DNA of 64,000 nt from Desulfobulbaceae bacterium BRH_c16a. Its GTDB lineage: Bacteria; Desulfobacterota; Desulfobulbia; Desulfobulbales; Desulfocapsaceae. Below, in pieces: positions 1,004-11,955 of the stretch (its first letter is position 1; the number at the start of each line of letters is the position of its first letter). The notes beneath the pieces were generated by a model that saw only the letters and a list, made by a program, of their open reading frames with translations, was not told the DNA's origin and did not search any database. The stretch covers positions 1-64,000 of the forward strand of contig LADS01000003.1 of NCBI GenBank assembly GCA_000961725.1. Reading direction: 5' to 3'. The translations under genes and the position numbers were made by a program.

Positions 1004-1705
1004 TTACACCTTATCTGATAGGTACTTCCGCGGCCTTCCCGGTTTTCCTGGAGTGATCCGGCGCCCCAAAGTCTTTTCCACTTCCGCTTTGAAACGTTTA
1101 TCGCCAAGGGCGTAATTGCCGTTTGTGGCATTTCTGATCTCATCTGCTATTCCGGGTGCCAATGCACTTCGAAATAAGGCACGGTACGCGGCCAGTCTTG
1201 CCGCACATGTCCGACCCAAGTTCATAAACAGGGGATGTTGGGACAGGTAGTCAGATTCCTCCCCTTGCGCATTGGCACGATAGCTTGACCACGGATAATC
1301 GCCGGGGTGTACAACAAGTCCTGCACGAACCGGGTTAAGCTCAATGTATTTCTGGCAGATGAGCAGATACCGTTCTTGCTGTGCTACGCAGGAACGGTAT
1401 CGCCCTTCCCAGAGCGTTCCGCTGCGCTGATAATAGCGGTTGACATATTGCACATACCGTTGCCCGAGCCGTTTCATTAGTATTCCAGTACTGCTTTTTT
1501 GGGTTGGAGTCACGAGGAGGTGAACATGATTGGTCATCAGTACATAAGCATGTACCGCGCACTCTGATTCATAGGCGTATTCTTTTAGCCACTCCAGAAA
1601 GTTCCGATAGTCTTCCCTGGCATAAAAACAGGCCTGACGATTATTCCCACGCTGGATCAGGTGGACAGGGATACCGGGTATCGTGATTCGAGGGCGTCTT
1701 GGCAT
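1004..1705 (-). mobile_element. REP-associated tyrosine (Y1/IS200-like) transposase, apparently intact
   Basis: MPRRPRITIPGIPVHLIQRGNNRQACFY...YVLMTNHVHLLVTP...GTLWEGRYRS...YIELNPVRAGLV, typical RAYT motifs including the HxH (HVH) motif. Start placed at MPRRPR inside the longer ORF. Confidence 0.88.
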
Positions 1706-2533
1706 TTCTCTCCCATGTTTGGATTGCGTTAATTGATCCTGGCTAACCGACACCTGATACTCCGTTGCCGATATGAGTTTTACCTTTTCAATTCTCCTCA
1801 TCAAGGGCTCTCGCATGCCGCCATTAAACACTTCCATATCCCTTCCGACGACGCTTGTAGCCCCCGAACAGCTCTGTCGTCGGCCACGTCTATAAACTTA
1901 TGAAGATTGTGAAAGTCTCCCCGGACGTAATGCATCGGAATTTTGTTATAAAGCAATGTAACATTCTATCGTTTCGATCGTTTCGATCGTTTTCCTCTTA
2001 AAGACAACCCAATATTCGAATATTGGGTTGTCATTATAGGTGATAGGGCTACAGGAAATTTGTGAGAGATATTGCCCAGTCTATTTTTCTGATTTTCTGT
2101 CGAAATTATCTTCTGATTCTTACAATTTTCTTACATTTCATAGTTTCGAAGCTTTCTTTATTAAAAAAGTCCAGTTTCCATTTTGATTAGCAAGGTCACA
2201 GATAAAATAAAAGCGGTCCAAACAGTTTCTTCGGAATGGGCATCCTCGGGATCCCCGTTGGTAAACCGTAACGGTTCACCAGTACCCCATTTTCGTCCGA
2301 TCAGGCCACCTCACATAGCCAACTATAGCTCGGCGACCTGCTTGAACGAACCTGGAGCACTGGATGAACGGTTACAGATCCGGGTTATGCAGTCTTTTGA
2401 TGCGTACCGGTGAACGATTACGGTAAACCAGTTGTGAATTTTACTTGGAAAGGCGTCCCGGTTCAGGGAATTGTAGTGGTTGATATCACGAATTGCCTGT
2501 ACGAAATCCTCTATCAACTCGTGGCTTTCTTTC

Positions 2534-2959
2534 TTAGGATATCCGTTCAATCATGGAGGCCCGCACCAGCACTGTGTTGTCGAAGGGGCAGACGTAGGTA
2601 TTAGCCGCAGTGTATAAAGAATAGATATTGGCAAAGAGTGGTTGCAGGTGGATCAACGGATAGTGACGGTGTCCGCCACCTGATAAACGAGCGAACGCGA
2701 TCAAGTCCTCCGGTCAATTTGCGCTCCTTCTGACCTTTTAAGCCGGGAAAAATTGCAAGAATGTTTCGATATCAAGCGTCGATCAACGCATTGGTAACCC
2801 TGATTGCGTCCCCGATCGATGCCGCGGGTTTTCCACATGACGCACTTCGTAGCCCCGCCGTTCCAATTTTCTCAGTGCCCGTTCACAGGTCGGCGCATTG
2901 TTGCCGAGGACCGGCACCAGGACTACACACACTGCTCGGTTTCTTTGTCTCGTGAACAT
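2534..2959 (-). pseudogene. decayed, frameshifted gene, possibly glycosyltransferase-like
   Basis: Coding-like fragments in shifting frames: MFTRQRNRAVCVVLVPVLGNNAPTCERALRKLERRGYEVRHVENP..., ..IDRGRNQ.., IFPGLKGQKERKLTGG.., LIAFARLSGGGHRHYPLIHLQPLFANIYSLYTAANTYVCPFDNTVLVRASMIERIS*. Confidence 0.45.
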
Positions 2960-3575
2960 TGACTCCCAAGGCTATCACCTGTTTGTCCGCCGGGATACCG
3001 ATGAACGAGAGCAGGTCCCTTAGGCCGTCTTCGGTGTTCAGCGCCTGATCGGTCTCGTACAATAGGATGTGCTCGGGGTACAAACGGATCATTTGGTCGA
3101 TTCGCGCATAATATTCGTTCCAGTAGCGGCGAATGCCTTCCTCCCGGTCCTGAGTGTCGTACTGCGGAAAGATGCGTGTCCAGTCTGGCTCATGATACCA
3201 GCCGAGCGCGGGACGCACGGCCCAATGGTTGGTCGGCAGAGGGTGGACTTGGTCGAGCCAGCGGCAGAAACTCTGGACGACTTCTTCCCGAGGTCGCCTG
3301 AGGCACACCATCCTGATTCCGGGCTCGACGGCAATCGCATCTTCCACATACGGCAGGTAGAACGACGCCACGTCACCCAGAACCCTCCCCTCCCGGGAGC
3401 GCCGCATCCGCACGAACCGCTCGCGGATCACCTGTTCTCCCGGCAGCTTTTTCCACGGTAGTCTGGGCCGCTCCTCGTGGGACACTTGCACTCCGGGCTG
3501 CCGGTTGAGCACATGCGCCAGGGAAAGCGTTCCACAGCGCCCACTGCCGATACCGAGTATGATGCGCTTGTTCAA
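2883..3575 (-). CDS. sulfotransferase family protein
   Basis: KRIILGIGSGRCGTLSLAHVLNRQPGVQVSHEE (PAPS-binding-like loop) ... MVCLRRPREEVVQSFCRWL ... ILLYETDQALNTEDGLRDLLSFIGIP. TTG start preceded by AGGAGAGG; the ORF-track start at 3680 is probably too long. Confidence 0.75.
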   Translation of the reverse strand: MNKRIILGIGSGRCGTLSLAHVLNRQPGVQVSHEERPRLPWKKLPGEQVIRERFVRMRRSREGRVLGDVASFYLPYVEDAIAVEPGIRMVCLRRPREEVVQSFCRWLDQVHPLPTNHWAVRPALGWYHEPDWTRIFPQYDTQDREEGIRRYWNEYYARIDQMIRLYPEHILLYETDQALNTEDGLRDLLSFIGIPADKQVIALGVNVHETKKPSSVCSPGAGPRQQCADL

Positions 3576-3624
3576 ATGGCCTCTCCTGTGTAAGTTTAAC
3601 CACAATTGACAATCATCACCGCCG

Positions 3625-4827
3625 TCATTGCGTATACCGACTTGCCGGCAATCGATCAACCGTGTTTGCGATACGCTCAATCACCAGTCTCTGATCATAT
3701 CCGGCATACCTTCCGGCCATGGTTCTCGCCCTTTGGCGAAAGGATTTATCGCCGAGAAGTTTGGCAAGAGTTGCTGGAAACTGGGCTACCAACCTGTCTC
3801 TCCGCACCGCTATGCCAACGCCCAGCAGTTCCATTTGCCGGGTCAATAACCACTGCTCGATAGTGGTAGGAATCATGAGCATCGGGACCCCGGCGAGAAA
3901 CGCATTTGCCGTCGTTCCATGGCCGGCGTGGGTGATCACCAGATCCGCCATCGCCAAGATCTCTGCAAGCCGGACCATGGTCGGGTAGATACGAATCGCC
4001 CCGCCGGCAAACGCGGCCAGGAGTGTTTCACTGACTCCAGGAATACAGGCTATCACCTCCGCATCGCTTCTTTTCAGCGTTTCGAGAATCAACTCAAGTT
4101 GGGAGATATTTCTCATATAGAGAAATATTCGATGAGCTTTGCGGCCTGTCCAGGATACGTTTATTCCTTCTTCGACAATGGATATCGGCCCGATGAAATG
4201 TCCAGCCCGACGTCCCCGGTAGTGATCCATCTCCGGAAAAGTCGCCAGCAGATTGATGTCGGCTTTGATCACATCCTGTATTTTGACGAATGAAGCATGA
4301 TCGTTACCGGCGCAGAACAGGTTGACACTCTCGAGGAGCGCCGCTTCCTTTGCCAGCAATTGCTCTTTGGTCCGCCTGAGATTTGGGCGAAAGCATGGAA
4401 ATGGCGCGCATTCAGGAGGATATTCGAACCCTGTATTCAATTGCAGACACGAAATGGCAGCCAGGCGAGCGGTAAAAACCGCCAGAGGTGCGTACTGCGC
4501 GATAATCACATCCGGCTGAAAAGATGCATAAATTCTTCGCCAGGCTGTCACCAGCTCGGTAAGGATTTCAGCGCTGCCGAATCCGGCTCGGTCGAGAATA
4601 TCGATGAAGCCGGCAGGAGGCGTCCCTCTTTTTTTTCCGGCAGCATGTTTTGGCGTCAGGATATAGCAGAAGCCGGCGCTTTCCAGCAAAGGTCCGGCTT
4701 CAGTCGCATCCTTAATAACAAAAAGGAGTTCATGTCCACACTGGCGAAGATGCTGCGCTACCGGCAATAGTTTGGCAATATGCCCGTAGTTTCCTCCCAG
4801 TTCCCAGGCCAATAAAATTCGTTTCAT
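3625..4827 (-). CDS. MGT/UGT-like glycosyltransferase
   Basis: MKRILLAWELGGNYGHIAKLLPVAQHLRQCGHELLFV ... ADLVITHAGHGTTANAFLAGVPMLMIPTTIEQWLLTRQMELLGVGIAV, GT-B UGT/MGT signature. Confidence 0.85.
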   Translation of the reverse strand: MKRILLAWELGGNYGHIAKLLPVAQHLRQCGHELLFVIKDATEAGPLLESAGFCYILTPKHAAGKKRGTPPAGFIDILDRAGFGSAEILTELVTAWRRIYASFQPDVIIAQYAPLAVFTARLAAISCLQLNTGFEYPPECAPFPCFRPNLRRTKEQLLAKEAALLESVNLFCAGNDHASFVKIQDVIKADINLLATFPEMDHYRGRRAGHFIGPISIVEEGINVSWTGRKAHRIFLYMRNISQLELILETLKRSDAEVIACIPGVSETLLAAFAGGAIRIYPTMVRLAEILAMADLVITHAGHGTTANAFLAGVPMLMIPTTIEQWLLTRQMELLGVGIAVRRDRLVAQFPATLAKLLGDKSFRQRARTMAGRYAGYDQRLVIERIANTVDRLPASRYTQ

Positions 4828-4983
4828 CAGGATATCTCCCGCACTGTATTGGCCCACCTTATTGGACGTCAGTTCCACTCCCTGCTATCATCTCGAAGAT
4901 CACCTGTTAGAAAACACCTTCAGGGCAGGCTCTTTTCTTACGTGTATCGGACTCATTAGAGGGCGGACTCTTCCAGAATCAAT

Positions 4984-6138
4984 CTATCTTACACCGACGA
5001 CGGTGAGCAGCATGAAGCAGTGGGAGAACCGCCCGGATTCCGGGATGAAACAGAGCACCCTGTCGCCGTCCTTGAGGTTGCCCGACTTCAGCAGCCCCTC
5101 CATCAGCAGGTAGATCGAGGCGCTGCCGATATTGCCGACTTCGGCCAGGTTGGTAAACCACTTTTCATAGGGAATCTCGAATCCCGCCCCTTTCATGCCC
5201 TGGTAAAACCTGTCGCGGAAGTAATCGGAAGAGTAGTGAGGCAGATACCAGTCGATGGACTCGGGACGAAGTTTGCGTTTGCCGGCTATTGCCGGAAGCG
5301 CCCTGGCCATTGCGGTCTTGACGATATGTTCGTCGAGGAGTTTGACATCCTGGCGCACGGCAAATACGTTCTCTTCGGCGGCGGCAAGGCTGCCGTTCAT
5401 CTGCCGCCAGCCCTGCACCTGACCGTCAGCCTGTTTTCTGCCGCCGGCATACATGCAGGTTTCCAGTTCGCCGGCGTACGAGCGGTTTTCAATCCATTCC
5501 ACCCGGTAACAGAGACCGGCATCGTTTTTTTTGCCCGAGACATAGGCGGCCCCGGCACCGTCGGAGAGCATCCAGCGGAGGAAATCGGCATCAAAGCCCA
5601 GGATCGGCTTTTTTTTCAGATCGGCCGCAGGCGCCGACTCGGCGCTGAAAAACCCGGCTTTCATATACGATGAGGCAATTTCCGAGCCGGTTGCCACCGC
5701 ATTGTCCACGGACCCGCAGGCGACATTCATGCAGGCGTATTTCAGGGCGGTCACCCCCGCCACGCAGATGCCCGCCGTGGTCACCACATCGCAGGGCGGC
5801 AGCCGCAGCTCACCGGCAACCATCACCCCGTGGCCCGGCATTGCAAGGTCGGGACTCGCCGAACCGCAGCAGAGGCATTCGATGTCGGCAGGTGTGAAAC
5901 CAGCGGTCGGCCGCAGTCGTCGTACCGCCTCGGCGGTCAGCTGGGCATTGGTATGGGTTGCCCGGCCGGTTGCCGGATCGAGAGCATAGTGTCTGGTATT
6001 GATCTTGTTATTGTTCAGAATCCGGCGTTTGGTCCTTGACGGGAGATTGTTTATCCGCCCGAGAACCTCTTCAATGTGATCGTTATCTACCGGCGCATTG
6101 GGGAGAAACGAGGCTAAATCGTTGATGAAGATATCCAT
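4984..6138 (-). CDS. 3-oxoacyl-ACP synthase III-like protein
   Basis: Active-site pattern TTAGICVAGVTALKYA (Cys), YLPHYSSDYF (His), VGNIGSASIY (Asn): an intact C/H/N triad of the KAS III type. Confidence 0.82.
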   Translation of the reverse strand: MDIFINDLASFLPNAPVDNDHIEEVLGRINNLPSRTKRRILNNNKINTRHYALDPATGRATHTNAQLTAEAVRRLRPTAGFTPADIECLCCGSASPDLAMPGHGVMVAGELRLPPCDVVTTAGICVAGVTALKYACMNVACGSVDNAVATGSEIASSYMKAGFFSAESAPAADLKKKPILGFDADFLRWMLSDGAGAAYVSGKKNDAGLCYRVEWIENRSYAGELETCMYAGGRKQADGQVQGWRQMNGSLAAAEENVFAVRQDVKLLDEHIVKTAMARALPAIAGKRKLRPESIDWYLPHYSSDYFRDRFYQGMKGAGFEIPYEKWFTNLAEVGNIGSASIYLLMEGLLKSGNLKDGDRVLCFIPESGRFSHCFMLLTVVGVR

Positions 6139-6140
6139 GT

Positions 6141-7451
6141 TCAGCTCTTCTGTATATGGTGATGCAGTTGTTTCATGAGGTCGGAATAGAGGGTGTAAAA
6201 TTCCTGGGTGGCAAGATTGGTCGGCAGTACCGCATTGGAAAAAGTGTAATAGTCCAGATCGGTGATGACCAACTCCTTATGCAGCCGGCGGTACAGTGCG
6301 GTCCCCGGAATCGGCGTAAGAATCGACGGAATCGGCAGGGCGATGGAAGAACTGTCGATAAATCTGCTCAGCCGCTCGAAGTCTTCATGGCCATAGTCGG
6401 GAGAAATGATGAAGTCGCCGATCACCCGGATGCCGATTTCAGCAAGAATCTGCAGGGCGGCGATGTTCTTCTGCAAACTGCTGCGCTTGTTCATGAGGCG
6501 CAGCCTGGAGTCGTCGATCTCTTCAAAGCCGATGACCACCGCGGCAAGGCCCGCCTCATGCCACAGCCGCATAAGGGCCGGATCGGCGACCACGGTATCT
6601 GCCCTGACATCGGCGACGATTTTTTTCTCGATACCAAGTTCAAGTATTCGCTCGGCCAGCACCTTGGCAATCGCCGGATCGCCGAAGGTATTGGCGTCGA
6701 CGAAGCGGATGAGAGGGATGTCGCCCAGCAGTCTCATGTCGCGGATGATCGCCTCGACACTGTGGCTGAGATACCGCCCGCCGGTCATCGAAGGGATCGA
6801 ACAGAACGAGCAGCAGTGGGTGCAGCCGAAGGCGGTGGCGACGAAACCCACTTTACCCCCTACTCCGCTCATGACATATTTGTCGCGATGGGCTTCGACC
6901 AGGTCGTAGCGCGGCGGCAGGTGATCGACCAGATCGGCAAAATCGTATTTTCGGACTGAGGGGGTAAAAACATCTCCGGGCCGCACCCGGACCACACCCG
7001 GAATGGCTGACGGCTCCCGTCCTTCCGTCAGGGCATCGACCAGCAGCCTGAACGTCAGTTTGCCGAGACCAACCACGACATAATCGAAACCATCCCGGTT
7101 AAAGTAGACAGGATCGCAGGAAGCATGGTGGCCGCCGACGACGACAACCGGGCTCTTGCCGACAAACCTTTTTTTGATCTCGCCGGCCAGCTTGATGACC
7201 GTATTCGCCTCACAGGTGACCGCCGTAAACCCGACGATATCCGGGCAAGTCCCTTCAGCCAGCAGCTTGGCAAAGCCATCCGGCTCGGCCTTCAGATCGA
7301 CGATCCGCACTTCATGACCGACGAGGTTGCCGGCCAGCACCTCGAGGGCCAGCGGCTCGCCGCGAAAGATCATCTTCAGCGAGGTGATGCCGAATTCCTC
7401 TTCGGGGATGGAACGCCCGCAGTTCGGCGGATTGATGAGCACGATATTCAT
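6141..7451 (-). CDS. B12-binding domain radical SAM protein
   Basis: N-terminal cobalamin-binding-like MNIVLINPPNCGRSIPEEEFG...DIVGFTAVTCEANTV; radical SAM cluster motif GCTHCCSFCSIPSMTGGRY (CxxxCxxC). Confidence 0.9.
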   Translation of the reverse strand: MNIVLINPPNCGRSIPEEEFGITSLKMIFRGEPLALEVLAGNLVGHEVRIVDLKAEPDGFAKLLAEGTCPDIVGFTAVTCEANTVIKLAGEIKKRFVGKSPVVVVGGHHASCDPVYFNRDGFDYVVVGLGKLTFRLLVDALTEGREPSAIPGVVRVRPGDVFTPSVRKYDFADLVDHLPPRYDLVEAHRDKYVMSGVGGKVGFVATAFGCTHCCSFCSIPSMTGGRYLSHSVEAIIRDMRLLGDIPLIRFVDANTFGDPAIAKVLAERILELGIEKKIVADVRADTVVADPALMRLWHEAGLAAVVIGFEEIDDSRLRLMNKRSSLQKNIAALQILAEIGIRVIGDFIISPDYGHEDFERLSRFIDSSSIALPIPSILTPIPGTALYRRLHKELVITDLDYYTFSNAVLPTNLATQEFYTLYSDLMKQLHHHIQKS

Positions 7452-7472
7452 GGGCCGGTTTTCCTCAGGTTT

Positions 7473-8801
7473 TCAGGGTCGTTTTCTCTTTCCGGCCGAG
7501 TATACCCATGCAATCATTGTCGTGCCAAGACAAAACGTCAGGAGCGCCAGGGTTTCCGGCAGGATCGCCCGCAGACCGCCGCCACGGAGAAGCAGATCGT
7601 AAAATCCGCTCTGCCCCCAGTAAAGGGGCGAAATCAGGCAGACCGGCCGGAGAAAATCCGGCAAGGCATAAACCGGCACCATAATGCCGCCGATTGCCGC
7701 GCCGATGACTATCGACACCGGGCCGAAGACGGCGATCTGCTCGTAGGTCCGACCGACCGTTCCAAGAAGTATGCCGTAGCCGCAGGCGGCGGCGATAATG
7801 CTGAGCAGTACCAGGGCAAAGAGCAGCGGCTCACTGCCCGGATCGAAAGCCGCTACCCCGAACAGGGGCAGGATAAACATGCCGGCGCCAAGAATGACGG
7901 CGAACTGGATCAGGCAGACGAAGGCATATGCGGCAATTTTACCGGACATGAAGGTGAGATAGCTGACGGGAAGAACACGCAGGCGCAGGAGGGTACCGGA
8001 TTCCCGCTCCTTTATGAGAGACCCTGCCAGCGGCACAACAATAAAGAAAATTCCGAAAATAGCCCAGGCCGGAACATTCTGCTGAACGGCGGTGGGCTGC
8101 CGGGTGAACCCCATCGCCGTGGTGAAATGTTCCTCAACCGGGATGAGGACAGTCTCCTCGAACAGCTGCGGCAGCAACTCCCTCACGCTCAACTGCGGCA
8201 GGGGGAAGGCCTGCATCATTTGCGTGTTTATGCCTTCGCTCATCTTTTCGGGAAGAAGCGCCAGACTGTGTTCGACAAAGAGTTGGGCCTGCACGCCTTT
8301 GACCACCTGGTCGAGCGCCGAACGCACCGCCGCCCGAAAACTCCCGTGCACCGTCGGATCAAACCATACCAGGATCTCGGGGATCACCGGGGAGGAGGGC
8401 GGCGCGCGGTCAGGAAAAAGATGCTGCGTAACCTTCTGCCGGGCGCCTTCGACTGCGTTTTCACTGAGCTCTTTCGGCAGGATCACGCCAAACTGATACC
8501 TGCCGGCAGCGACCAGCGAATGGACCGTTTCGGCGGAAAGCTCATTTCCCTCCAGCTGCTCGACCAGCCGGATGGTATCAATCCGGCCGAAAAGCCTGCG
8601 GACTTCGGCACCGATCGCTCCTTTATCGTTATCGACAAAAAGAACATCGACGTTTGTGGTCGTCACCTTGTCCTGGATAAGGGTAATGACGATCACCAGA
8701 AAGGCGGGCATGACAAAAAGCAGGACTAATCCCGCCCGGTCGCGGATGAGCAGGAGCAGTTCCTTGGCTATAGATGCCAGGAGTTTCGAGCCGTTCATCA
8801 T
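7473..8801 (-). CDS. ABC-2 type transporter permease
   Basis: Several TM segments; N-terminal LLLIRDRAGLVLLFVMPAFLVIVITLIQD and LIKERESGTLLRLRVLPVSYLTFMSGKIAAY, typical of ABC-2 permeases. Confidence 0.88.
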   Translation of the reverse strand: MMNGSKLLASIAKELLLLIRDRAGLVLLFVMPAFLVIVITLIQDKVTTTNVDVLFVDNDKGAIGAEVRRLFGRIDTIRLVEQLEGNELSAETVHSLVAAGRYQFGVILPKELSENAVEGARQKVTQHLFPDRAPPSSPVIPEILVWFDPTVHGSFRAAVRSALDQVVKGVQAQLFVEHSLALLPEKMSEGINTQMMQAFPLPQLSVRELLPQLFEETVLIPVEEHFTTAMGFTRQPTAVQQNVPAWAIFGIFFIVVPLAGSLIKERESGTLLRLRVLPVSYLTFMSGKIAAYAFVCLIQFAVILGAGMFILPLFGVAAFDPGSEPLLFALVLLSIIAAACGYGILLGTVGRTYEQIAVFGPVSIVIGAAIGGIMVPVYALPDFLRPVCLISPLYWGQSGFYDLLLRGGGLRAILPETLALLTFCLGTTMIAWVYSAGKRKRP

Positions 8802-8804
8802 CCG

Positions 8805-9560
8805 TTACTCCCGCAGGTGTTCGCCGGTTTTTTTAAGAAAAAGCTCGGCCAGATCGCCGCATCCTTCCGTCTGGGCGACCAGGTTTTCCGGCGTCCCTTC
8901 GGCGACAATCCGGCCCAGGTCGATGATCACCACTCGCCGGCAGAGGCGCTGTACTTCCTCCAGATAATGGGAGGTATAGACCATCGCCATCCGCTCATCA
9001 TTGAGGGCGGCGAGTTTTTCCATGATCAGATGGCGCGACTGGGCATCGATTCCCACCGTCGGTTCGTCGAGAAACAGCAACTCAGGCTCATGAATGATAC
9101 CGATAATCAGGTTGATGCGCCGTTTCATTCCCCCCGAATAGGCTGCCACCTGCCGGTTCCGCTTGTCATAGAGACCGAACATGTCGAGATAATACTTGGC
9201 CCTTTCCTCCAGCAAGTCCCGCTTAAGTCCATACATCCGGCCAAAATAGGTGATATTTTCAGAGCCGGTCAGGCGGTCGTAGAGGGCAATGTCCTGCGGC
9301 ACCAAACCGATCCTGCTCCGGACCGCCTCAGGATTGTTCCAGGTGTCGATTCCACTGATAAAAAGCGATCCCCGCTGCGGACGGAGAAGGGTGGTGAACA
9401 CGGAGATTAAAGTGGTCTTGCCCGCGCCGTTCGGACCGATAAGGCCACAGAATTCCCCCGGAAAGAGGGTGAGTGAAATGCCGTTTAATGCCGGCGCGTC
9501 GCATCCGGCGTAGGTGAGAAAAAGATCCTTGCCGTCCAGGAGCGGCGGGTTATCGGTCAT
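8805..9560 (-). CDS. ABC transporter ATP-binding protein
   Basis: Walker A GPNGAGKTT, signature YSGGMKRRINL, Walker B LLFLDEPTVGID. Start set at MTDNPPLLDG. Confidence 0.93.
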   Translation of the reverse strand: MTDNPPLLDGKDLFLTYAGCDAPALNGISLTLFPGEFCGLIGPNGAGKTTLISVFTTLLRPQRGSLFISGIDTWNNPEAVRSRIGLVPQDIALYDRLTGSENITYFGRMYGLKRDLLEERAKYYLDMFGLYDKRNRQVAAYSGGMKRRINLIIGIIHEPELLFLDEPTVGIDAQSRHLIMEKLAALNDERMAMVYTSHYLEEVQRLCRRVVIIDLGRIVAEGTPENLVAQTEGCGDLAELFLKKTGEHLRE

Positions 9561-9568
9561 CGCGGCGC

Positions 9569-10576
9569 TCAATGGAGGAGTTGCAGGATATCCGCATAGA
9601 TTCCCCGCTCGGCTTGGGCACATTCGCGCAGGATCCCGGCCAGCTCACCGTAGCTGTCGCCGGCTTTTGCCCGGCCTTTACAGAGCCGCGCCCCGGATAC
9701 GGCGAACCGCCGCCAGGTATCGCCGACCAGGGTCATCCGCTCGGACAAAGAGCCAAGCGGAGCAATTCCGGTGAGTTCGGCCGCTTCCTGCAGAAATGCA
9801 GCATACATGAAGCGAAAGCCTCCCCCGCCGGTGCCGATCTCCTCCTGCATCCTGATAAGCTGACCGAGGTAAAGCAGAGCCTGTTCCTCGCCCAGTTTCT
9901 TTGGCCATTTCTCAAGCCGATCGGCAAGAAAGCCAATGCCTCGGGTGCCGAGAAACGGCACCGGGGTCCGCAGCATGGTCTTGCTTACCGCGGCCAGGCC
10001 CTGTCGGACCGCAGCCGCCATGTCGGGGCTGGTTGGCACCGACTCCAGATAATACATCGCTCCTTTCGGCGCGAGACTCCCCTGGGCAAACCTGGCCCGC
10101 TGCAGATCGTCCCTGCGGCAGCGCACTACATCTTCAAAGACCGGATCGCTGATCAGGTATTCATCTTTATCGCGGCCGATGACCACCAGGTTGTGCATGT
10201 TGAAGTGGAAGCGGAAGGCCGGCGGGAAATAAGGCAGCCAATAGGCTCCGGTCTGACAGCCGACGGGAATGCCCTGGTCCAGTTTTTCGTCAAGGGCCGC
10301 CATGGCTTTGGCCTGCGAGCGGAATTTCTGTCGTCCCACCGTTACGCCAAGCCGCTTGGTCACTTTGCCGAAGATACTGCCGACACTGCACCGGAAGGTG
10401 GTGAGCGGCAGTTTGTTTATCTTGATAAACGGCAGATAGCCGAAAAAAAGTCCCTCACCGATCCCGAAGGCAAGCGCTTCGGAACAGGCAATATTATGAA
10501 AAAGGAGAAGATTCGAGGTTACCCCGCTTTCACAATGGGCCGACTGCCGGTGGGGAAAAGGGATGAGAGCGTCCAT
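9569..10576 (-). CDS. BtrH N-terminal domain-like protein (acyl-ACP:acceptor acyltransferase-like)
   Basis: MDALIPFPHRQSAHCESGVTSNLLLFHN...MHNLVVIGRDKDEYLISDPVF..., matching the BtrH_N pattern with candidate Cys/His/Asp residues. TGATG overlap with the upstream gene. Confidence 0.75.
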   Translation of the reverse strand: MDALIPFPHRQSAHCESGVTSNLLLFHNIACSEALAFGIGEGLFFGYLPFIKINKLPLTTFRCSVGSIFGKVTKRLGVTVGRQKFRSQAKAMAALDEKLDQGIPVGCQTGAYWLPYFPPAFRFHFNMHNLVVIGRDKDEYLISDPVFEDVVRCRRDDLQRARFAQGSLAPKGAMYYLESVPTSPDMAAAVRQGLAAVSKTMLRTPVPFLGTRGIGFLADRLEKWPKKLGEEQALLYLGQLIRMQEEIGTGGGGFRFMYAAFLQEAAELTGIAPLGSLSERMTLVGDTWRRFAVSGARLCKGRAKAGDSYGELAGILRECAQAERGIYADILQLLH

Positions 10577-11004
10577 CAGCGATGCCGGAGCGATTCCGGG
10601 GAAAAGGCTTCCGGTACGGTTTGCAACTCGGCGATGGAGACTCCGAAGACCATGGCATATTTCTGCAGGATACGCTCGGGCAGCCGCCGAAAAACCGCAG
10701 GCTTGCGATGCCGTATAACCCTCCACCTTGCCATGTTGACGTAGCTGGCCAACAGGCCGATATCCATCTGATGTCTCGCCTGATGATAGGCGATAGGGCT
10801 CAGTTCGCCGTTTTTCACCGACCGGTACGCTCTTTCCGTCTCCACAGCGATCAGTGCCCAGGCCTGGTCGTTGACGACGTTTTTGGCCTCCCAGCCAAGG
10901 CTCGGCGACAAGGTGTACTTGCCGTTACTGTTCACGGCATAGCACACCTCGTGACCATAATCACCGATCATGCCTTTATCCTGGGGAACTTCCTCTACTT
11001 TCAT
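10576..11004 (-). CDS. conserved-looking 142-aa protein, first gene of the BtrH-like cluster
   Basis: MKVEEVPQDKGMIGDYGHEVCYAVNSNGKYTLSPSLGWEAKNVVNDQAWALI...; overlaps the BtrH-like start by one nt (TGATG), indicating translational coupling. Confidence 0.7.
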   Translation of the reverse strand: MKVEEVPQDKGMIGDYGHEVCYAVNSNGKYTLSPSLGWEAKNVVNDQAWALIAVETERAYRSVKNGELSPIAYHQARHQMDIGLLASYVNMARWRVIRHRKPAVFRRLPERILQKYAMVFGVSIAELQTVPEAFSPESLRHR

Positions 11005-11220
11005 GTTTTGCCGCTTTTCAACACCCGGTTTATGACACAGGTGAAATATAATTATACTTATCTCGTCTGAAATTCGCCGATATTGACTCCTGCACAGGCG
11101 GCATGACCGAAGAATTCGGTGAGAAAACTAGCAGCAAGGTTCCCGAGTGTCAATTTTTTAATGGTCATGGCCTAAAAAGACCATCGATATCGATTTCTCC
11201 CATAAATCCCTTCAGGAAAA

Positions 11221-11955
11221 TCATGACCGTCCGGGCCCGGCCTCCTCCACAGACATGGCAATTTCCCGCTGCATCTGTTCAATCACCGCTATCGGATCCA
11301 GGGCTCTGGTGATCGGACGGCCGACAACCACGTGAGTGGCCCCGTTTTTCAGTGCCATCCCGGCTGTCACGATGCGCTGCTGATCGTCGCCGCTGTCTGT
11401 GATATTTGCTCCGGGCCGGATACCGGGTGTAACGATCAACAGTTTCTCGCCCAGCTCCCGCCGTATTTTTTCAGCCTCCAGACCGGAAGAGACCACTCCG
11501 TCGCAGCCCAGCTCGAGCGCCCTTTTTGCCCGGAAAGAGACAAGATCGGCAACCGAACCGGTCATCCCCATGGCCCGCATGTCCTCTTCGCCAAAACTGG
11601 TCAACACGGTGACGGCAAGGAGCTGCAGATCGCCCCGTGCGGAGACCGCCGCCCGAATAATGGGATCGTTGCCATGGATGGTGGCAAACGTCACGCCCCG
11701 GTCATTTACCTGTTGCACCGCCAGTTTGACGGTTTCGGGGATATCGAAAAATTTCAGGTCGAGCATGACCTTGTGACCGCGATCGACTATCCAGTCGACC
11801 GTGTCGAACCAGCTGCCCATGAACAGCTGCAAGCCCACCTTATAAAAAGTGCAGTGGGACTCGCACTTTTTTACCAGAGCTTTGGCCTCTTCCGGACTGC
11901 TCACATCGAGGGCAACGATTATCCGCTCCTGCAACGGTATTTTTTTATAGCTCAT
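11221..11955 (-). CDS. pyrF: orotidine 5'-phosphate decarboxylase
   Basis: IIVALDVSSPEEAKALVKKC...KVMLDLKFFDIPETV...VTPGIRP, OMPDC signature. Confidence 0.95.
   Translation of the reverse strand: MSYKKIPLQERIIVALDVSSPEEAKALVKKCESHCTFYKVGLQLFMGSWFDTVDWIVDRGHKVMLDLKFFDIPETVKLAVQQVNDRGVTFATIHGNDPIIRAAVSARGDLQLLAVTVLTSFGEEDMRAMGMTGSVADLVSFRAKRALELGCDGVVSSGLEAEKIRRELGEKLLIVTPGIRPGANITDSGDDQQRIVTAGMALKNGATHVVVGRPITRALDPIAVIEQMQREIAMSVEEAGPGRS

Follow-up and report, generated by a model that had tools for sequence, protein, structure and literature searches.

The first 64,000 nucleotides (nt) of contig LADS01000003.1 (forward strand) from the Desulfobulbaceae bacterium BRH_c16a assembly GCA_000961725.1, here called the window, carry at positions 4984-11004 six co-directional, tightly packed minus-strand genes, which we named by Pfam and NCBIfam profile searches with curated cut-offs (Table 1). 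Judged by their sequences, the six genes are a conserved dialkylresorcinol (dar)-type set, of the kind building flexirubin-like pigment rings, minus darA; in the darA position stands a gene for a B12-binding radical S-adenosylmethionine (SAM) enzyme. This replacement of DarA is apparently undescribed so far, as we found no relevant paper on DarB paired with a radical-SAM enzyme in the open-access literature. An initial annotation, made from the DNA letters, had already set the ends of the cluster where we find them and had described its packing correctly: counted from the 142-amino-acid (aa) gene, a 1-nt TGATG overlap is followed by gaps of 8, 3, 21 and 2 nt, taking ATG 9560 as the start of the ATP-binding cassette (ABC) ATPase, which is likelier than the longer open reading frame (ORF) start at 9623 that would overlap the preceding gene. 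That annotation had also recognized the B12-binding and Radical_SAM domains but missed that the slot is that of darA, and it had called the 142-aa protein an orphan, whereas the protein belongs to the NCBIfam DarG family. The names clash here, since NCBIfam DarG and DarH are darD and darE of Azoarcus BH72, and it is the Azoarcus naming that we follow. The six-gene unit is found behind pyrF with exactly the same content in the close relatives L053, L054 and L055, and the same-strand order is also kept in L104, L112 and L114; the arrangement is widely conserved in other genomes.

Table 1. The six genes of the dar-type operon in the window, in the order in which they are read.
Feature	Position	Strand	Details
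darD-type gene	10576..11004	-	142 aa; NF053536 152.8 bits (cut-off 70)
darE (NCBIfam 'DarH')	9569..10576	-	335 aa; BtrH_N + DUF4872; NF053550 454.9 bits (cut-off 300); Cys15/His128/Asp144
darF-type ABC exporter ATPase	8805..9560	-	ABC_tran 104 bits; start ATG 9560 inferred from sequence
darI-type ABC-2 permease	7473..8801	-	ABC2_membrane_3 120.8 bits
B12-binding radical-SAM gene in darA position	6141..7451	-	436 aa; Pfam B12-binding + Radical_SAM
darB/StlD-type ketosynthase-cyclase	4984..6138	-	NF005293 538.9 bits (cut-off 450); ACP_syn_III_C

The evidence for an exchange in the darA slot comes from a survey of the phylum in which NF005293 identified DarB in 22 of 298 genomes, one copy each, with radical-SAM orthologs called at 630 bits or more (the next best match reaching 317) and DarA at 423 bits or more. 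The radical-SAM ortholog lies directly upstream of DarB in 12 of the 22 and is found nowhere else among the 298, and DarA lies directly upstream of DarB in nine; in a tenth DarA genome (G047) DarB borders a contig end, and DarA is inferred there from a 121-bit fragment at the end of a different contig. The 22 DarB genomes are accounted for by these 12 and 10, with both genes in none and neither gene in none. A wider scan of bacteria and archaea, with each species represented by a single genome, gave 161 relatives; among the best 80, darB is the next gene after the radical-SAM gene in 79, and the contig of the remaining one (L058) ends 78 nt after the radical-SAM gene, while DarA was absent from the fetched flanks of all 80 loci. 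Most of the carriers belong to the Desulfobacterota; one locus each is labelled Acidobacteria, Holophagaceae, Verrucomicrobia and Neptunomonas, labels that may be wrong because these are binned genomes. Cultivated strains with the locus include Desulfofustis glycolicus DSM 9705, Desulfogranum mediterraneum DSM 13871 and Desulfuromusa kysingii DSM 7343 (L092, L126 and L127).

DarA itself is, in this phylum, a flavodoxin-like protein of about 310 aa with the motif YYSQ[ST]GQL that fits no Pfam or NCBIfam model, and it was assigned by position, size and partner rather than by comparison with an experimentally verified DarA sequence; a homolog adjoins a DarB-like gene on Streptomyces plasmids. DarA is absent from the window locus, and a DarA encoded elsewhere in the radical-SAM genomes was considered and rejected as a general answer, since 4 of the 12, the window's own genome among them, have just a short flavodoxin-like match of 74 bits, and matches of this kind also occur in several genomes without DarB. 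StlD/DarB-family genes were also seen on Prevotella and Bacteroides plasmids (L145, L147), directly behind a TetR or helix-turn-helix regulator and without an annotated DarA or radical-SAM neighbour, which implies that pairing with DarA is not universal outside the phylum.

DarB chemistry leads to cyclohexanediones and DarA chemistry is an aromatisation, in agreement with paper titles and annotations. The initial annotation had seen in the last gene of the operon a β-ketoacyl-acyl carrier protein (ACP) synthase III-like enzyme with intact Cys, His and Asn, and these residues are indeed present (C125, H301 and N330, together with E153 and R370), with Cys125, Asn330 and Arg370 nearly or fully invariant across the DarB family alignment; however, instead of the malonyl-ACP condenser of the FabH kind that had been supposed, the profile searches point to a StlD/DarB-type enzyme cyclising two acyl thioesters, and the best solved relative is StlD (PDB 5gk0, E=2.7e-121, full length). 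We reject the idea of a DarB active site that differs between the DarA type and the radical-SAM type, since no alignment column discriminates the two and the active-site columns are the same in both, so DarB probably performs the same cyclisation in either setting. On the DarB tree, all 47 radical-SAM-paired rows fall on one side of a branch with a Shimodaira-Hasegawa-like approximate likelihood ratio (SH-aLRT) of 92, just under the starred level, and the DarA-paired rows do not form one group; the simplest reading of these sequences would be a single replacement, kept ever since, rather than many.

The radical-SAM protein carries the CX3CX2C motif (C210, C214, C217) and a T-C80-E-A signature in which C80-E-A is invariant, and relatives of the enzyme drawn from this set of loci show Ser, Pro or Asn at the position of C80. 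C80 aligns with Trp76 of TokK, the residue under the cobalt, and for HgcA the lower ligand is presumed to be a cysteine (PMC13331322). The structural model (predicted local distance difference test, pLDDT, 89.2) has an N-terminal Rossmann domain and a radical-SAM barrel, and its neighbours include the methylases TsrM, MgmA, CysS and TokK, the ring-contracting OxsB and the dehydratase AprD4. An HpnR-like B12 radical-SAM paralog is encoded elsewhere in the window's own genome (G000), at L137:6196-7554 (G000:C55), and scores 248 bits, under the cut-off of 650.

What, then, would such an enzyme do? Three observations speak for a ring oxidation like that of DarA, namely the occupied darA slot, the mutual exclusion and the lack of change in DarB; the class prior speaks for methylation. 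On balance, and from sequence comparison, we lean slightly towards a dar-type pathway in which the enzyme takes over from DarA and works on the ring made by DarB; as to the step itself, our single best guess, offered tentatively, would be oxidative aromatisation towards a dialkylresorcinol, and more tentative still is the full proposition, in which the enzyme would be of a new, non-methylating cobalamin radical-SAM type and would oxidatively aromatise the cyclohexanedione from DarB, as a DarA replacement that arose once and spread through the Desulfobacterota and relatives, with the invariant cysteine predicted to lie under the cobalt. The DarE tree lends modest support to a similar acceptor ring in both types through lineages that cross between them, as the radical-SAM loci L102 and L079 carry a DarE of the DarA lineage (starred support of 98) and the DarA genome G084 has, with weaker support, a DarE inside the radical-SAM lineage.

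Several points weigh against aromatisation in DarA's place, however. No NCBIfam equivalog fits the radical-SAM protein, the nearest being HpnR, a hopanoid C-3 methylase, with 170.5 bits against a cut-off of 650, and cobalamin radical-SAM enzymes are most often methylases (PMC11659888). The window DarB misses the exception-level model NF053539, 'dialkylresorcinol biosynthesis protein DarB', with 456.7 bits against a cut-off of 550, as does a DarA-paired DarB of the same phylum (520.8). The Fisher value of 1.5e-6 for the distribution of the two genes overstates the independent evidence because of the single replacement on the DarB tree, and the permease tree separates the DarA and radical-SAM types cleanly, which fits an altered product as well as an unchanged one; on the question of a similar acceptor ring it speaks against what the DarE tree suggests. 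The idea of the radical-SAM enzyme as an anaerobic substitute for an oxygen-using DarA also found no support, since a haem-copper oxidase is present in 7 of the 12 radical-SAM genomes and in 6 of the 10 DarA genomes, and DarA is therefore also present in genomes lacking this oxidase.

The strongest competitor, although we regard it as unlikely, is C-methylation of the DarB cyclohexanedione or of an alkyl arm, with no aromatisation by this enzyme, giving a methylated cyclohexanedione ester as the end product. It can draw on the class prior and on HpnR as the nearest profile, on the methylases among the structural neighbours, on permease lineages that split with the ring type, and on dialkylcyclohexanediones that are end products elsewhere, as with the chiloglottones (PMC5515871); methylation alone, however, provides no explanation for DarA and the radical-SAM gene never occurring together (0 of 22 genomes; 0 of the 80 loci examined as the best of 161), and the best TM-score of the model (0.79/0.76) is to AprD4, which is no methylase but a radical-SAM diol dehydratase. 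We consider it improbable that the enzyme has its substrate in a precursor acyl chain, ahead of DarB, or in the aryl-polyene moiety, and that the loss of DarA in this lineage is unrelated: DarB-radical-SAM pairs do occur without DarE nearby in Syntrophaceae (L072, L074, L075 and L082), and B12 radical-SAM enzymes of another subfamily do occur in polyene clusters, being BchE/HpnJ-like and adjacent to aryl-polyene-type ketosynthase (KS) and chain-length factor (CLF) genes at L136:2611-4164 (G000:C25), L036, L039, L047, L048 and L050, but the gene discussed here is tied to darB, and not to DarE or polyene genes, in those 79 of 80 loci and occupies exactly the darA position. Least credible is that the six genes are chance neighbours with a DarB product unrelated to DarE, for even though darD-E-F-I often runs divergently from radical-SAM-darB or lies apart from it, the six-gene same-strand order recurs in the six loci named above, and DarE is present in 20 of the 22 DarB genomes (each protein being found in 22 of the 298; hypergeometric 8e-27, kinship ignored), including G031, G230 and G251, where the two are unlinked.

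Returning to ring formation with the radical-SAM enzyme in DarA's place, the other half of the operon would supply acyl transfer and export. The darD-type gene lies directly 5' of darE in most surveyed loci. The family match of DarE is real (BtrH_N 160.7 bits, cut-off 29.7; DUF4872 187.7 bits, cut-off 28), all 58 sequences compared share its Cys15, His128 and Asp144, and its AlphaFold model (pLDDT 94.6) finds AziU3/U2, CcbD and CtaG as Foldseek neighbours (TM 0.62-0.70), with the CtaG entries in the match list including the variants C11A, H128A and D144N. These results, along with the DarH profile, support what the initial annotation had proposed from the BtrH likeness, a carrier-protein-dependent acyltransferase with a Cys/His/Asp site, and it is the fold neighbours CcbD and CtaG that suggest that DarE would take its acyl group from a carrier protein. 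Export by the ABC ATPase and permease pair is plausible from the protein families. The same annotation had envisaged a small acylated product that is built, modified and exported, and here the acyl transfer is supported and the export plausible, but the cluster is a variant of the known dialkylresorcinol kind. In L047-L051 the genes are arranged in a third way, as darD-darE-ABC with DarB missing from the locus; L047 and L048 also hold ACP, KS, CLF, lipid-A-type acyltransferase and MMPL-like genes and L050 (G230:C112) has the DarD-DarE pair in three tandem copies upstream of the ABC genes (6924-11431); among these genomes, three have a radical-SAM-darB pair elsewhere and two are without any DarB.

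As for the source of the acyl group, the initial annotation was right that no dedicated carrier protein accompanies the operon, as no ACP or KS gene (darC, darJ) lies within or beside the six genes, but the ACP of primary metabolism, on which it then relied, need not be assumed: contig C25 of the same genome carries an aryl-polyene-type cluster with its own ACP, an MMPL exporter, LolA, an ApeP-type dehydratase, a KS-CLF fusion, a ketoreductase, an AMP-ligase and a lipid-A-type acyltransferase. In related loci, an ACP or a KS/CLF pair adjoins the dar genes, and PF22817 proved too weak as a genome-wide polyene marker. Given an estimated assembly contamination of 6%, the link of the dar operon to C25 is likely, not certain. 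The KS-CLF fusion is one 726-aa ORF (L136:8554-10737, G000:C25), and a FakA/DegV-like 583-aa ORF lies nearby.

The pathway that we propose would begin with DarB joining a β-ketoacyl and an enoyl thioester to a 2,5-dialkylcyclohexane-1,3-dione, as expected by analogy with the characterised DarB and StlD; the radical-SAM enzyme would then act on this ring in DarA's place, with an aromatising oxidation as the best guess and C-methylation as a close second, DarE would use Cys15/His128/Asp144 to move an ACP-bound acyl, probably an aryl-polyene acyl from the C25 cluster, onto a ring hydroxyl, and the ABC pair would move the ester outwards. The swap in this pigment-type pathway, within the phylum a flavodoxin-like DarA against, in one large DarB lineage, a cobalamin radical-SAM enzyme, can be tested, and either outcome is informative: radical-SAM enzymes would gain a new, aromatising reaction, or anaerobes would turn out to make a family of methylated cyclohexanedione lipids. 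The BtrH-DUF4872 and 142-aa proteins encoded in dozens of Desulfobacterota genomes are also given a dar/aryl-polyene setting.

Beyond darB, the window contains an MGT-like glycosyltransferase (3625-4878, minus strand) and a weak sulfotransferase-like protein (2883-3680, minus strand), which look unrelated to the cluster and were rejected as parts of it for having no counterpart in any surveyed related locus; an ORF at 1004-1837 (minus strand) resembles, by eye, a REP-type Y1 transposase.

Among known systems, the dar cluster of Azoarcus BH72 (arcuflavin) comprises darA (DAR-aromatase), darB (DAR-cyclase), darD (hypothetical), darE (BtrH-like peptidase), darF (ABC ATPase), a darG/darH Phd/PilT pair, darI (ABC permease), darC (ACP), darJ (ketosynthase) and darK, and the DAR ring is joined there to an aryl-polyene acid from genes that are not all linked, while both cluster types have been reported together in other betaproteobacteria (PMC3949708). 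The window operon has darB, darD, darE, darF and darI in common with it, as well as polyene genes at a separate locus, but has a B12 radical-SAM gene instead of darA and no adjoining darC, darJ or darK. With the flexirubin clusters of Chitinophaga pinensis and Flavobacterium johnsoniae (PMC3992019) it shares a DarB-family synthase, the logic of polyene plus ring and polyene-type genes in the same genome, and it differs in having a radical-SAM enzyme where those have DarA and in keeping ring and polyene-type genes on separate contigs. StlD (PDB 5gk0-5gk2), the isopropylstilbene ketosynthase-cyclase, is the closest solved structure and has the active-site Cys/His/Asn in common with the window DarB, which would be expected to use other acyl substrates and is without a StlC/DarA-type partner. 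The HpnR-, AprD4-, TsrM- and TokK-type enzymes share the Rossmann and barrel architecture, whereas the window enzyme, with its invariant C-E-A motif, stands in a family of its own. CcbD, CtaG and BtrH resemble DarE in fold and in the invariant Cys/His/Asp but transfer their acyl groups to an amine, whereas a ring hydroxyl would be the acceptor for DarE. By its gene content, then, the window operon is one that would work like a dar cluster but without DarA, and hence is not a standard member of the kind.

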